A stretch of 64,000 bases of DNA from a bacterium. Lineage in GTDB: Bacteria > CLD3 > SB21. Each line of letters starts with the position of its first letter. Within the stretch, counting starts at the first letter, position 1. The position numbers and the translations under genes were made by a program. Shown piece by piece: positions 1-4,213 of this stretch. Location of the stretch: positions 1 to 64,000 of the forward strand of contig WBUR01000016.1 in NCBI GenBank assembly GCA_008933615.1. The letters are read 5' to 3'. The notes below the pieces were generated by a model. That model was given only the letters and a program-made list of their open reading frames with translations, was not told the origin of the DNA and did not search any database.

Positions 1-12
1 GTCTAGAAGGGG

Positions 13-60
13 ACGTACTGACTCAGATAGTACGTTCCCTCTCCTCATCGAGGAGAGGGA
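13..60. repeat. Double-hairpin palindromic repeat, copy 1
   Basis: Two adjacent hairpins lie just upstream of the first DUF559 gene. The first pairs ACGTACT (13-19) with AGTACGT (29-35). The second is a perfect 11-bp stem (36-46 with 50-60) around a 3-nt loop. The same 75-80 bp, including the stretch running into the start codon, recurs almost unchanged at 1988-2066 before the second DUF559 gene. The block is therefore a mobile or duplicated unit and not a one-off terminator. Confidence 0.85.
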
Positions 61-83
61 CAGGGTGAGGTTGGAGATAAACC

Positions 84-467
84 ATGAACAAAATATTCAA
101 TCAAAATGCTCGAAAAGAAAAACGCCGCTCCTTGCGTCGGCGCTCGACCAAGGCAGAACGGACGCTCTGGCAAAACCTGAGAAACCGCGGTTTTGAAGGG
201 TATAAATTCCGAAGGCAAGTCAGTGTCGGTTTTTTCGTGCTGGATTTCTACTGTCCCGAATTGAAACTCGCAATGGAAGTTGACGGATATACTCACGACT
301 CCGATGAGGCCAAAAAATACGATGCGGAAAGGCAGGAGATCATAGAGAACTATGGAGTTCGATTTCTTCATATCCGCGATGAAGAAGTTCATGAAGACAT
401 CGAAAAAACACTGAAAAATATCAAAACTGAAATCCTGAAGCGAATTGATGACGACAAAAAACTATGA
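84..467 (+). CDS. DUF559 endonuclease-like protein, copy 1
   Basis: Small (127 aa) protein of the DUF559 family, a Vsr/PD-(D/E)XK-type nuclease fold. A basic N-terminus (KEKRRSLRRRS) leads to E25, then the family core LDFYCPELKLAMEVDGYTHD (residues 53-72) with D54, E65 and D67 as likely metal ligands. Full family length. The ATG at 84 follows the palindromic repeat by about 20 bp and is matched exactly by the start of the copy at 2063. Its stop overlaps the ATG of the DUF2779 gene (464), so the two are translationally coupled. Substrate unknown; DUF559 genes are commonly sporadic and repeat-associated, which suits a mobile or accessory role. Confidence 0.85.
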   Translation: MNKIFNQNARKEKRRSLRRRSTKAERTLWQNLRNRGFEGYKFRRQVSVGFFVLDFYCPELKLAMEVDGYTHDSDEAKKYDAERQEIIENYGVRFLHIRDEEVHEDIEKTLKNIKTEILKRIDDDKKL

Positions 468-1945
468 TAACCACGCCCTTCCTCTCAAAATCAAAATACC
501 TCAACGGACTTCAGTGCCCCAAACTGCTTTGGCATTATTACAATGCGAAAGAAGAGATCCCCAAAACCGATGCCGAGACGCAGGCAATATTCGATCAGGG
601 GCATGAGGTAGGTGAGCTTGCGAAAAAACTTTACCCGGATGGGATAGAGGTAGCCAAAGGGCTTGTGGATTTTGAAAAAGTCATTGAGCAGACGCAGAAA
701 CTGATCTCTAAACGTAAGCCGCTATTTGAAGCCGCTTTCTTATATAAGAGCGCTTACGCCCGCGTGGACATTCTGAATCCGGTCGAAGACGATGGCTGGG
801 AGATCATCGAAGTCAAAAGTTCTACCAGGGTCAAGGATATTAACCTGCGCGATCTTTCACTCCAGTGGTATACCTATCAGGGCGCCGGGCTTTCGATCAA
901 ACGATCTTATATTTTGCACATTAATAACCAGTATGTTCGCAAAGGTGAAATCGATCCCGAAAAACTTTTTACGCTCACCGATATCACGGAAGAAGTGAAA
1001 GACCTACTGCCCTTGGTAGAACGTCAATTAGCTGATATGACGGAAACCATTTCGGGCAAAACTTGTCCCGAAGTGGCCATCGGCACCCATTGCAGTACTC
1101 CTTACGACTGTCCGCTGCAGCAGAAGTGTTTTGTTTTTCTTCCGGAACATAATTTGTTGACGCTCTATTATATAAATAAAGAAAAAGCCTTTGCACTGAT
1201 CCACCAGGGAGTGACTGATATTTTGGCGCTGAATGATCGTGTGGAGCTTTCCGATAAACAGAAACTTCAGGTTGAAAGCCTTAGGTCCAAAAAGCCATAT
1301 TTAAATAAAAGCGGTATTCGCACATTTCTGGACACGCTGGAATATCCGTTATATTTTCTTGATTTTGAAACGATCGGGCCTGCCATGCCGCTTTTTGATA
1401 ACACGATACCACATCAACCGATCCCATTCCAATTCTCTCTTCATATTCAGCGTTCAGCCGGAAAAGATACCGAGCATTACAGTTATCTCGCGGACGGGAA
1501 ACATGACCCGCGTCCGGAACTGCTGAAACTGCTGAAAAAACATTTAGGCCATCAGGGGTCGATCATCACGTATAGTGCGTCTTTTGAAAAGGATAAACTG
1601 AATCGCGCGTGCGAAGCGTTTCCGGAATTTGCGAAATGGAATGATGGAATTCAGAAACGTATCGTCGACCTGCTTGATCCGTTCAAGGCGTTCCACTTCT
1701 ATCATTATGATCAAAAAGGAAGCGCATCGATCAAGTCCGTCCTGCCCGTTCTGACCGGAACCGGCTATGAAGGTATGGCGATCTCGGAAGGAGGCATGGC
1801 CAGCCGGGAATTTCTGCGCGTAACTTTTGGCGAAAACATAACGGAGGAAGAACGAATGGCCGTTCGAAAAAATTTGGAAGACTATTGTTCGCTCGACACC
1901 ATGGCGATGGTGGAGATCGTGGAGAAGTTGAGGGAGATGGTGTGA
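464..1945 (+). CDS. DUF2779 protein: Cas4-like Fe-S nuclease domain plus DEDD exonuclease-like domain
   Basis: 493 aa, DUF2779 family. The N-terminal half has features of an iron-sulfur PD-(D/E)XK nuclease as in Cas4/AddB: C18 in LQCPKLLW, acidic and lysine residues D102, E116 and K118 (VDIL...EVKSS), and a cysteine set C210-x5-C216-x5-C222 that with C18 could hold a 4Fe-4S cluster. The C-terminal half has a DEDD exonuclease signature: YFLDFETIG (D300, E302) and a late YCSLDTMAMV motif. The ATG overlaps the upstream DUF559 stop, implying joint expression. Function is inferred from motifs; neither activity is known for this protein. A palindromic repeat starts right after the stop. Confidence 0.8.
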   Translation: MITTPFLSKSKYLNGLQCPKLLWHYYNAKEEIPKTDAETQAIFDQGHEVGELAKKLYPDGIEVAKGLVDFEKVIEQTQKLISKRKPLFEAAFLYKSAYARVDILNPVEDDGWEIIEVKSSTRVKDINLRDLSLQWYTYQGAGLSIKRSYILHINNQYVRKGEIDPEKLFTLTDITEEVKDLLPLVERQLADMTETISGKTCPEVAIGTHCSTPYDCPLQQKCFVFLPEHNLLTLYYINKEKAFALIHQGVTDILALNDRVELSDKQKLQVESLRSKKPYLNKSGIRTFLDTLEYPLYFLDFETIGPAMPLFDNTIPHQPIPFQFSLHIQRSAGKDTEHYSYLADGKHDPRPELLKLLKKHLGHQGSIITYSASFEKDKLNRACEAFPEFAKWNDGIQKRIVDLLDPFKAFHFYHYDQKGSASIKSVLPVLTGTGYEGMAISEGGMASREFLRVTFGENITEEERMAVRKNLEDYCSLDTMAMVEIVEKLREMV

Positions 1946-1950
1946 TGGTA

Positions 1951-2056
1951 ACCTCATCCCTGTCCCTTCTCCTTGAAAAGGAGAAGGGGACGTACTAACT
2001 CAGACAGTACGTTCCCTCTCCTCGTCGAGGAGAGGGACAGGGTGAGGTTGGAGACT
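1951..2056. repeat. Palindromic repeat cluster, copy 2
   Basis: Three hairpins in a row: an 11-bp stem at 1964-1974/1978-1988, the ACGTACT...AGTACGT-type hairpin (about 1990-2012), and a perfect 11-bp stem at 2013-2023/2027-2037. From about 1988 it repeats the window's first 80 bp with only a few substitutions. The ACCTCATCCC at 1951-1960 is an approximate inverse of the GGGTGAGG at 2040-2047, so the cluster is itself an outer inverted repeat. Confidence 0.85.
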
Positions 2057-2062
2057 AGAACC

Positions 2063-2458
2063 ATGAACAAAATATTCAATCAAAAAATTCAAAAAGAAAA
2101 ACGCAGGGCATTACGCAAGCGCTCGACACGCAGTGAACATATGCTTTGGCAAAACCTGAGGAATCGCGGGATCGACGGATTCAAATTCCGCCGGCAGTTC
2201 AGCGTTGGGCCGTTTGTCCTGGATTTTTATTGTCCGGAATTGAAGCTGGCGATTGAAGTAGATGGTTATTCACACGATTCCGAAGAAGCAAAGAAATACG
2301 ATGCGGAGCGCCAAGAGATCATTGAAACATACGGCGTCGTGTTTGTTCGTATTCGTGATGAGGAAGTAAAAGAAAATATAGAGCTAGCGATCATTAAGAT
2401 AAAAGATCAGGTCAAAAAATTAAATCCAACCTCACCCTTTTCTCTCCCTTTGAAATAG
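2063..2458 (+). CDS. DUF559 endonuclease-like protein, copy 2
   Basis: 131 aa paralogue of the protein at 84-467, sharing most of its sequence: MNKIFNQ start, SVGPFVLDFYCPELKLA, EVDGYSHDSEEAKKYDAERQ. The frame is open further upstream to 1973, but that stretch is palindromic repeat; the ATG at 2063 matches the start of copy 1 and is preferred. The last roughly 11 residues (NPTSPFSLPLK) are encoded by the left arm of the next palindromic repeat, so the native C-terminus seems to have been replaced or extended by repeat DNA. Predicted PD-(D/E)XK fold; substrate unknown. Confidence 0.82.
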   Translation: MNKIFNQKIQKEKRRALRKRSTRSEHMLWQNLRNRGIDGFKFRRQFSVGPFVLDFYCPELKLAIEVDGYSHDSEEAKKYDAERQEIIETYGVVFVRIRDEEVKENIELAIIKIKDQVKKLNPTSPFSLPLK

Positions 2459-2507
2459 TACGTGCCCTGCTCCTCTCCCAGGAGAAGAGATAGGGATGAG
2501 GTTGGAG
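2425..2507. repeat. Palindromic repeat, copy 3 (degenerate)
   Basis: CCAACCTCA (2427-2435) pairs with TGAGGTTGG (2497-2505), enclosing an imperfect CTCCTCTCCC/GGAGAAGAG hairpin and a relic of the AGTACGT motif (2457-2463). It overlaps the 3' end of the second DUF559 gene and closes the nuclease island. Confidence 0.75.
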
Positions 2508-2532
2508 AAAAATTAAATCCGGAGTCAACCTT

Positions 2533-3510
2533 ATGAAAGCAATCACCTACACTCAATACGGATCACCCGATGTGATTCGGTTCGAAGACGTAGAAAAACC
2601 CGTTGTCAAAAACGACGGAGTACTGGTAAAAATTTATGCGGCCTCGCTGAATGCGTACGACTGGCATTTTCTCACCGCGGACATATTTCTTGTTCGCCTC
2701 ATGGGCGTGGGCCTCTTCAAACCCAAGAACCCGCGGCTTGGCGCGGACTTCTCGGGACGTGTGGAAGCGGTGGGGAAGAACGTGACGCAGTTCAAGCCCG
2801 GTGACGAAGTGTACGGGGACGCCGCTTCGTTTGGGAATGGCGCTTTTGCGGAATACATAGCCCTGCCTGAAAAAGCAATGGCGCTGAAACCGTCGAATTT
2901 ATCTTTTGAAGAAGCCGCGGCTGTGCCGATGGCGGCGCTCACCGCTCTGCAGGGTTTGCGCGACGAAGGGAAGATCCAGGCGGGACAAAGAGTTTTGATC
3001 AACGGCGCATCCGGCGGAGTGGGAACGTATGCCGTGCAGATCGCGAAATGGTTCGGCGCGGAAGTGACTGCGGTGTGCAGTACGAGGAATATGGATCAGG
3101 CGCGCACGCTTGGGGCCGATCATGTTATCGACTATACGAAAGAAAATTTCACGCAAAGCGGCAAGTTGTACGACCTGATCTTTGCGGCGAATGGATATCA
3201 TCCGCTTTCCGCGTATAAGCGCGCGCTGACGCCGAAAGGCATTTATATCATGGCGGGTGGAACTGGAACTCAGATCTTCTCGGCCATGCTCCTGGGGCCT
3301 TTGATGTCAAATAAAGGCGGGAAGAAAATGGGCGGTGTGTCGGCGAAAATAAACCAAAAGGATCTGTTCATTATGAAAGAACTGCTGGAGTCGGGGAAAG
3401 TGGTACCGGTGATCGACCGGCGCTATCCTTTAAGTCAGACGGCGGATGCGCTGCGGTATCTTGGAACAGGGCATGCGCGGGGAAAGGTGGTTATTACGGT
3501 GGAGAAGTGA
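2533..3510 (+). CDS. NAD(P)-dependent zinc-less medium-chain alcohol dehydrogenase / quinone oxidoreductase
   Basis: 325 aa MDR-superfamily enzyme. Residues 1-130 form the GroES-like catalytic domain (GADFSGRVEAVGKNVTQFKPGDEVYGD). The Rossmann domain has the nucleotide motif INGASGGVGTYAVQIAKWFGAEVTAV near residue 157, followed by GADHVIDY. No Cys/His zinc-ligand pattern is visible, so it is of the quinone oxidoreductase-like, zinc-free type. A GGAG ribosome site (about 2521) precedes the ATG. The closest relatives in family terms are reductases of quinones or alpha,beta-unsaturated carbonyls; the real substrate cannot be told. Monocistronic, directly after the nuclease island. A second MDR gene lies at 38108. 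Confidence 0.85.
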   Translation: MKAITYTQYGSPDVIRFEDVEKPVVKNDGVLVKIYAASLNAYDWHFLTADIFLVRLMGVGLFKPKNPRLGADFSGRVEAVGKNVTQFKPGDEVYGDAASFGNGAFAEYIALPEKAMALKPSNLSFEEAAAVPMAALTALQGLRDEGKIQAGQRVLINGASGGVGTYAVQIAKWFGAEVTAVCSTRNMDQARTLGADHVIDYTKENFTQSGKLYDLIFAANGYHPLSAYKRALTPKGIYIMAGGTGTQIFSAMLLGPLMSNKGGKKMGGVSAKINQKDLFIMKELLESGKVVPVIDRRYPLSQTADALRYLGTGHARGKVVITVEK

Positions 3511-3640
3511 TGACCGCCCACCCCCGGCTTGTAAAGGCAAAAGATGCAATATTATTTCTGAGCTTTATTGTGTTTTGTATTAAGAAAGTACTTTATATTC
3601 TCAGTGAATAGTATTAACGGAGAATTTCTCTTATACGGAC

Positions 3641-4213
3641 ATGAAAAAAATTACTTTTCTAATGCTTATTGGGTTGTGTACTGCGAATCTTCTAGCGCAA
3701 GAAGAGTACATGGTAGTTTTTTCCGGTGGACTAGTCAGGCCAAACGATTCCAAATCCAAAAAATTCTGGAACCAGGGGAATTCTCTTGATTTGCGTACAA
3801 AATTCAAAAAAACGGATTTTGGTGCCATGTTTGCTGAAATAGGATATTTATGGAATCAACTCAAATCAAAAAACAGAATTAATGACCACTCTACGCATAG
3901 GAGCGATTTTCTTGTTGGGATTGGCACTGAGCTCAATTCGAAATTGTTAATTTTCAATTTGAATTCGTATTTTAGTGTTGGGGCATTATATGAAAAGAAA
4001 CCAGCTTATTATAATTTTGATCGGGGAGTTGATCCATATTTAGAAAAAAAAAGCACCGATACGAAATACTATTTTAATTCAAGCATTGGCTTAAGCCGAC
4101 CCGTTTCTAAGAATTTGGAAATCGGCATCAATTCTCGATTCCTTTTTTCGATACGCGGAGAGCCGCGAGGATTCTGGTTTCCCGTTACGTTGGATTCACG
4201 AATTCGCTTTTAG
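3641..4213 (+). CDS. Exported protein of unknown function, outer-membrane barrel-like
   Basis: 190 aa. A Sec signal peptide is clear (MKKITFLMLIGLCTANLLAQ, cleavage after about residue 20). The mature part alternates polar and aromatic residues in short strands (FAEIGYLWNQL, LLIFNLNSYFSVGALYE, YYFNSSIGLSRPV) and ends in SRIRF, a terminal-Phe pattern typical of outer membrane beta-barrels. I do not recognise the family. It is followed after about 100 bp by another exported PEGA/barrel protein and may form a pair with it. AT-richer than the preceding gene. Confidence 0.65.
   Translation: MKKITFLMLIGLCTANLLAQEEYMVVFSGGLVRPNDSKSKKFWNQGNSLDLRTKFKKTDFGAMFAEIGYLWNQLKSKNRINDHSTHRSDFLVGIGTELNSKLLIFNLNSYFSVGALYEKKPAYYNFDRGVDPYLEKKSTDTKYYFNSSIGLSRPVSKNLEIGINSRFLFSIRGEPRGFWFPVTLDSRIRF

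Follow-up and report, generated by a model that had tools for sequence, protein, structure and literature searches.

In a window of 64,000 nucleotides from a bacterium of the CLD3 lineage (GenBank assembly GCA_008933615.1, contig WBUR01000016.1, positions 1 to 64,000), two genes of the DUF559 family and one DUF2779 gene lie among three copies of a palindromic repeat. This island is located at the very start of the contig, base 1 of the window being base 1 of contig C16 in the 3.77-Mb draft genome (G000). The repeats are, as read from their sequence, intrastrand-triplex motifs of the BoxC/PIT type, and we found an association of DUF559 genes with BoxC-type repeats, both physical and genomic, in many phyla. 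We propose, with a probability of about 0.58, that a DUF559 gene and the repeats bracketing it make up a minimal element that is, or once was, selfish, its Vsr-like nuclease working with cognate triplex repeats in the manner of repetitive extragenic palindromic (REP) sequences and REP-associated tyrosine transposases (RAYTs). The DUF559 family is widespread with little assigned function, and linking it to BoxC repeats gives each a partner.

BoxC/PIT/triplex repeats were first noticed in Escherichia coli in the 1990s. The motif consists of a pyrimidine arm, a loop, a purine arm and a mirror-image third block, in that order. Three hairpins of the window have a third-block score of 1.0 (purine arm GGAGAGGGA, third block AGGGTGAGG), and these are the only triplex-type hairpins in the whole 64 kb, every one of them within the island. 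In the complete copy, rep2, the hairpins occupy 1964-1988 and 2013-2037, with the third blocks on the outside and a GTACGT hairpin in the center. The first-pass annotation, made from the letters of the window, had reported three double-hairpin repeats; all three are present, but rep1 is cut off by the contig start and rep3 is degenerate. Its observation that about 80 bp leading into each DUF559 start codon are near identical was confirmed: bases 5-83 (rep1 plus the leader up to the ATG) match 1982-2062 at 76 of 81 positions, and a core of 73 bp is 96% identical. The E. coli repeat (BoxC/PIT/TM_ECO), defined as an intrastrand triplex motif and present in >260 genomes, has the same three blocks (CCCTCNCCC, loop, GGGNGAGGG, N3, GGGNGAGGG), likewise occurs as inverted pairs of ~100 bp and as intergenic copies scattered over the genome, and has unstable loci (PMC4666352). 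It differs in that the third blocks point inward in most E. coli pairs and outward (<>) in the window, and in that the published analysis found no transposase or integrase remnants and no mobility gene near BoxC and mentions no nuclease (PMC4666352).

We then looked into the flanks of DUF559 genes from other phyla and found the same kind of repeat. The sample comprised 80 DUF559 loci, retrieved as best matches to queries of this lineage and covering Cyanobacteria, Bacteroidota, Nitrospinota, Patescibacteria, Chloroflexi, Deltaproteobacteria, Ignavibacteria and others, with 341 open reading frames (ORFs) of the same loci as controls. A hairpin with a C-rich pyrimidine 5' arm and a 7-bp stem was located within 200 bp of the gene in 87.5% of the DUF559 loci versus 9.1% of the control ORFs, and on both sides in 49% versus 1.2%; hairpins with exchanged arms (mirror, purine-arm) were found in 3.7% versus 0.6%. 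The third block was present at 85% of the hairpins and at 10% of shifted positions; the full triplex motif, third block included, occurred in 71 of the 80 loci, and the third blocks of paired motifs were oriented outward, as in rep2, in 40 of 44 pairs. Terminal inverted repeats between the two flanks (score of at least 12) were found in 54% of the loci versus 1%. Long direct repeats between flanks were present in 37/76 loci versus 2/76 with swapped partners; in most cases, a complete copy of the element is found on each side of the gene, and in some, the repeat is other sequence (e.g., L098, L141).

Evaluation of the third block revealed that it covaries with its own purine arm (0.949 for own arms versus 0.871 for arms swapped between loci, z = 9.0), with z = 2.5 only in a direct-repeat control. 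Part of this covariation reflects related loci, but the 32 unique arms give the same result (0.938 versus 0.850). These comparisons are evidence for constraint on the geometry of the three blocks. The similarity of the motifs also tracks that of the DUF559 proteins (Mantel P = 5e-4), weakly beyond a distance of 0.5. A very improbable alternative is that triplex-prone intergenic DNA is a fragile site that catches small nuclease genes and insertion sequence elements, the genes having no functional tie to the repeat. BoxC loci are indeed rearrangement hot spots (PMC4666352), and in a sister species the left repeat of the DUF559-2 unit contains an IS3-type element (contig C170 of G001; L061, 1700-2940). 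However, such passive capture explains neither the specificity of the association for DUF559 compared with other ORFs of the same loci (9%) nor the coverage of both flanks, and it does not explain why repeat sequence follows DUF559 sequence.

The association extends to whole genomes. Among 148 genomes of one order (that of Cyclobacterium), in which a palindrome pattern was counted and a reversed control pattern was near zero, DUF559 was encoded by 21 of the 24 genomes with at least 3 repeats (up to 186) versus 36 of the 108 with none (Fisher P = 1.3e-6, uncorrected for phylogeny). When strong DUF559 matches only were considered, the count among zero-repeat genomes fell to 28/108 (P = 2.8e-8). 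In 41 genomes from many families, five showed a clear excess of triplex-type motifs (G000, G017, G026, G037 and G039), all of them with DUF559; G027, which lacks DUF559, had a high triplex-pattern score but a high control as well.

Within G000, the repeat recurs far beyond chance: a 26-bp core was found six times in the 3.77 Mb with up to 3 mismatches, and its reversed control was not found. A 19-mer of the core (up to 2 mismatches) yielded 12 copies, all listed at 0 or 1 mismatch. Four of these directly precede DUF559 genes belonging to a single subfamily (two on C16, one on C22 and one, whose gene is frameshifted, on C8), two are on C57 in a tandem repeat array matching the end of contig C8, and the others are solo. 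The genome shows a dispersal of the BoxC type, with four complete solo elements of 98-101 bp and some inverted pairs. Repeats spread widely without DUF559 had been named in advance as a refutation of a mobile unit; 8 of the 12 core copies do lack an adjoining DUF559 gene, yet repeat-rich genomes almost always encode one. The element is in tandem by the frameshifted gene (L056, 5780-6424 on C8; L087, 1-330 on C57), and the ends of C8 and C57, which share the array sequence, probably join each other. Two further DUF559 genes of G000, on C3 and C20, have their own, different C-rich palindromes on either side.

Repeat and gene even overlap. DUF559-2 terminates within rep3 (stop codon at 2456-2458), and the C-terminal tails of many DUF559 proteins are translated repeat, such as NPTSPFSLPLK (DUF559-2, window 2425-2458), SPSPQPSP and NHPPLTPPIKGG (many in L097 to L176). 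Similar tails in database proteins may flag BoxC-type repeats close by.

We then analyzed the DUF559 proteins. Both window proteins score far above the PF04480 cutoff of 20.6 bits (104.9 bits for DUF559-1 and 99 for DUF559-2). An AlphaFold2 model of DUF559-1 (mean confidence score, pLDDT, 83) matched NGO0050 (3hrl), the catalytic domain of I-Bth0305I (3r3p), PvuRts1I and, weakly, Vsr; a profile search gave 3hrl at 4e-35 and 3r3p at 5e-7, and the E. coli member YcjD detects Vsr at 1e-5. In 13 diverse members, E65, D67 and G68 are invariant and D54 and H71 nearly so (core D...ExDG..H). YcjD has previously been placed beside Vsr in the PD-(D/E)XK superfamily (PMC1189080). DUF559 is predicted to be a single-domain PD-(D/E)XK nuclease similar to Vsr and I-Bth0305I. 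In an experimental evolution study of Legionella, a segment with a transposase and DUF559 was a hot spot of mutation and recombination (PMC12308824).

This kinship with Vsr could also suit a host enzyme for DNA structure repair, acting in very short patch repair or fork processing, that would resolve BoxC/triplex DNA and be retained where repeats occur, with its gene beside repeats for regulation and the repeats spreading by other means. VsrA, a DUF559 protein of Caulobacter, has a reported link with DNA damage and with cytosine methylation (PMC12907096), and entire E. coli phylogroups have kept ycjD (PMC12817139). We regard this explanation as unlikely, as an enzyme acting in trans needs no repeat-bracketed gene, yet nearly nine in ten loci across phyla have one; nor does it need two full elements in direct order around the gene.

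We rather favor the selfish element, and infer that the nuclease recognizes and cuts the repeat, which spreads by repair. The flanking repeats of ~100 bp would be the cognate substrate of DUF559. Their strands could fold into a hairpin joined by the third, G-rich block as an intrastrand triplex, and DUF559 would recognize the triplex or the hairpin form, for example, at replication forks, and cut at or near the folded repeat. During repair of the break, cleaved or homologous sites might then receive a copy of the element, either together with the gene or lacking it. Solo repeats would be nonautonomous copies or leftovers, comparable to REPINs for RAYTs and to solo long terminal repeats (LTRs) for LTR elements. 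Should DUF559 indeed read triplex geometry, its recognition of intrastrand triplex DNA would be unusual for a nuclease.

A likeness to REP-associated elements had been suggested by the first-pass annotation. It is well supported as to anatomy, by dispersed solo copies, gene-linked copies and the genome-level link; no clean proof of transposition was found at the sites checked in sister genomes and E. coli. REP/REPIN-RAYT (TnpA_REP) systems likewise have dispersed short palindromes, inverted pairs, a palindrome-flanked gene and genome-level co-occurrence. In contrast, RAYT is an HUH (Y1) tyrosine transposase and the gene linked here encodes a Vsr-like PD-(D/E)XK protein, and the hairpins described here carry a mirror third block. 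No tag of the GTAG/CGTC type was seen by inspection at the foot of the hairpins, and the window repeats end in AACC/GGTT. Since the enzyme is unrelated to RAYT, membership in the REP-RAYT family fails.

Comparison with two sister species, G001 and G002, bears on the movement of the unit. DUF2779 and a zinc-type alcohol dehydrogenase (ADH) gene are neighbors in all three genomes, and the DUF559-2 unit is absent between them on contigs C31 of G001 and C256 of G002. On another G001 contig, C170, the unit is joined to an ADH start of the G001 type. Positions 1993-2532 are identical to C170 at 539/541 positions (99.6%), compared with 88.5% for DUF2779 and 90.2% for ADH between the species; the first 75 ADH bases on C170 are 98.7% identical to the other G001 contig and 90.7% to the window, so that identity changes to the G001 type within ADH. 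Barring a misassembly in the fragmented G001 bin, one unit has either moved recently between related genomes or been preserved by conversion. Given one G001 allele without the unit, the pattern suggests a recent homing-like transfer of repeat, DUF559 and repeat together.

Such data raise the alternative of a homing endonuclease, in which DUF559 would cut either an allele free of the repeat or a solo repeat, and the element would spread through gene conversion at homologous loci instead of transposing to new sites. The closest characterized functional fold to the model is the EDxHD homing endonuclease I-Bth0305I, an unoccupied allele exists in the same population bin as the nearly identical unit, and in many loci a complete copy of the element, in direct orientation, stands on each side of the gene, an arrangement expected of a gene that landed in a solo element (the 37/76 loci above). 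We nevertheless consider homing by itself improbable, because four DUF559 copies of the same subfamily occupy unrelated sites in one genome and ectopic movement would be needed too. I-Bth0305I is encoded by a group I intron, whereas the DUF559 ORFs are freestanding; a group I intron or another known structured RNA was rejected, as Rfam gave no match in positions 1-4000 of the window.

Not all of the island is recent. DUF559-1 is located upstream of DUF2779 in both G000 and G002, and this arrangement is therefore old. Conservation of the island in relatives, proposed beforehand as a refutation of mobility, thus applies to this part, and the DUF559-2 unit is absent from the main G001 and G002 contigs. 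A solo element at the C25 site is present in G000, G001 and G002, shortened in G002 and apparently inverted in G001 (83/100 positions identical to the reverse complement, score of 62 versus 41). In G006, a repeat-DUF559 unit follows a diverged copy of ~52 bp of the downstream gene's start (L098, 4826-5410), possibly a long target duplication or a regenerated gene.

The pairing also occurs in E. coli K-12, where ycjD (b1289), between sapF and fabI (1351407-1351760), is annotated as DUF559 protein YcjD. Downstream of it, 168 bp from the ycjD stop, TCCCCTCGCCCCTCTGGGGAGAGGGTTAGGGTGAGGGG corresponds to BoxC/TM no. 9 (1351204-1351239; PMC4666352, Table 1). The sapF-fabI interval (L202, L203, L210) contains either ycjD or the eefRABCD pump operon, depending on the lineage (PMC12817139). 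A 40-nt BoxC query matched 5,395 of 5,426 E. coli genomes, at a median of 19 places. At pstA-pstB, a BoxC copy is polymorphic, with ACACGGTT once in the empty allele and several times in the occupied allele, which fits an insertion with an 8-bp duplication. YcjD and VsrA have been studied or annotated only as putative Vsr-like nucleases, with no repeat link noted, and we found no paper connecting DUF559, YcjD or COG2852 to these repeats in open-access PMC, where a report in a subscription journal would be missed. The origin of BoxC can now be tested in K-12, and the pairing makes DUF559 a candidate enzyme for the spread or maintenance of BoxC-type repeats. A wider proposal, which we hold tentatively and at somewhat less than even odds, is that DUF559 and BoxC-type repeats constitute a pan-bacterial class of minimal selfish elements, whose Vsr-like nuclease would read an intrastrand triplex as mobility end, structure rather than sequence alone defining the element, with E. 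coli ycjD and its ~20 to 30 BoxC copies as a living or fossil example.

Several observations weigh against a selfish element. The 80 loci were sampled from best hits to one lineage, and the co-occurrence statistics ignore phylogeny; three of the 24 repeat-rich genomes lack DUF559, and the 36 genomes that have it without counted repeats may carry repeats of another sequence type. Footprinting did not support the presence of triplexes in vivo, and in vitro their formation is known for the E. coli sequence only (PMC4666352). The G001 assembly is fragmented (620 contigs, 9% contamination), and C170 could be chimeric. G002 carries a decayed DUF559 tail before ADH, and the absence of the unit there is therefore a loss. 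We found no site that was clean, virgin and empty and had a consistent target duplication. Apart from pstA-pstB, the sites compared are degenerate; copies in G001 and G002 are mostly shared or decayed, no region homologous to the G006 copy was found in G003 to G005 or G007, and two further E. coli sites showed no virgin allele among the matches listed. The pstA-pstB pattern fits a precise deletion as well.

Table 1. Features of the island at the start of the window
Feature	Position	Strand	Description
rep1	1-72	none	3' portion of two-hairpin BoxC/triplex element; hairpin 36-60, third block AGGGTGAGG 62-70
DUF559-1	84-467	+	127 aa, predicted Vsr-like PD-(D/E)XK nuclease; Pfam E = 2.6e-30
DUF2779 protein	464-1945	+	493 aa; Pfam E = 2.6e-38
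rep2	1950-2049	none	Complete, 100 bp; terminal inverted repeats AACCTCA...TGAGGTT
Leader, repeat to DUF559-2 start	2050-2062	+	
DUF559-2	2063-2458	+	131 aa, predicted Vsr-like nuclease; Pfam E = 1.8e-28
rep3	2428-2503	none	Degenerate two-hairpin element; hairpin order reverse of rep2
ADH	2533-3510	+	Zinc-type alcohol dehydrogenase/quinone reductase; flanking gene, kept beside DUF2779 in sister species

The two DUF559 genes and the DUF2779 gene were confirmed by Pfam at the positions first annotated (Table 1); the reading frames of DUF559-1 and DUF2779 share 4 nt (ATGA). All three proteins had been predicted to be nucleases, which agrees with our analysis of the DUF559 pair; DUF2779 gave only a weak Cas4-like match in its N-terminal half (6e-7). 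We rejected DUF2779 as a part of the unit: homologues occur without adjacent DUF559 (C31 of G001, C27 of G008), and in sister species the gene itself has undergone duplication and disruption. It is probably a bystander or a target gene. Partial 5' copies of it are found upstream of the full gene with inserted sequence between them (L084, 5557-7195, on C31 of G001; L065, 826-2348, on C307 of G002) and look like part-duplications of a target gene.

The initial suggestion of a selfish element or a defense module is thus partly supported in its first half, for DUF559 plus repeats and without DUF2779. A defense or restriction module of the three proteins is hardly credible. All three may be nucleases, and DUF559 and DUF2779 lie near genes resembling hsdS on contig C7 of G008; yet PADLOC found no system, only weak shared-fold matches, and besides the DUF2779 homologues on their own, DUF559 mostly occurs alone. 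DUF559 genes adjoin such type I restriction specificity (hsdS-like) genes in G008 (L093, 2300-6560) and also on C22 of G000 (L052). The repeat of G008 is an AT-richer version (CATCTCCCTAAATCCCTCTTCAAAGAGGGA).

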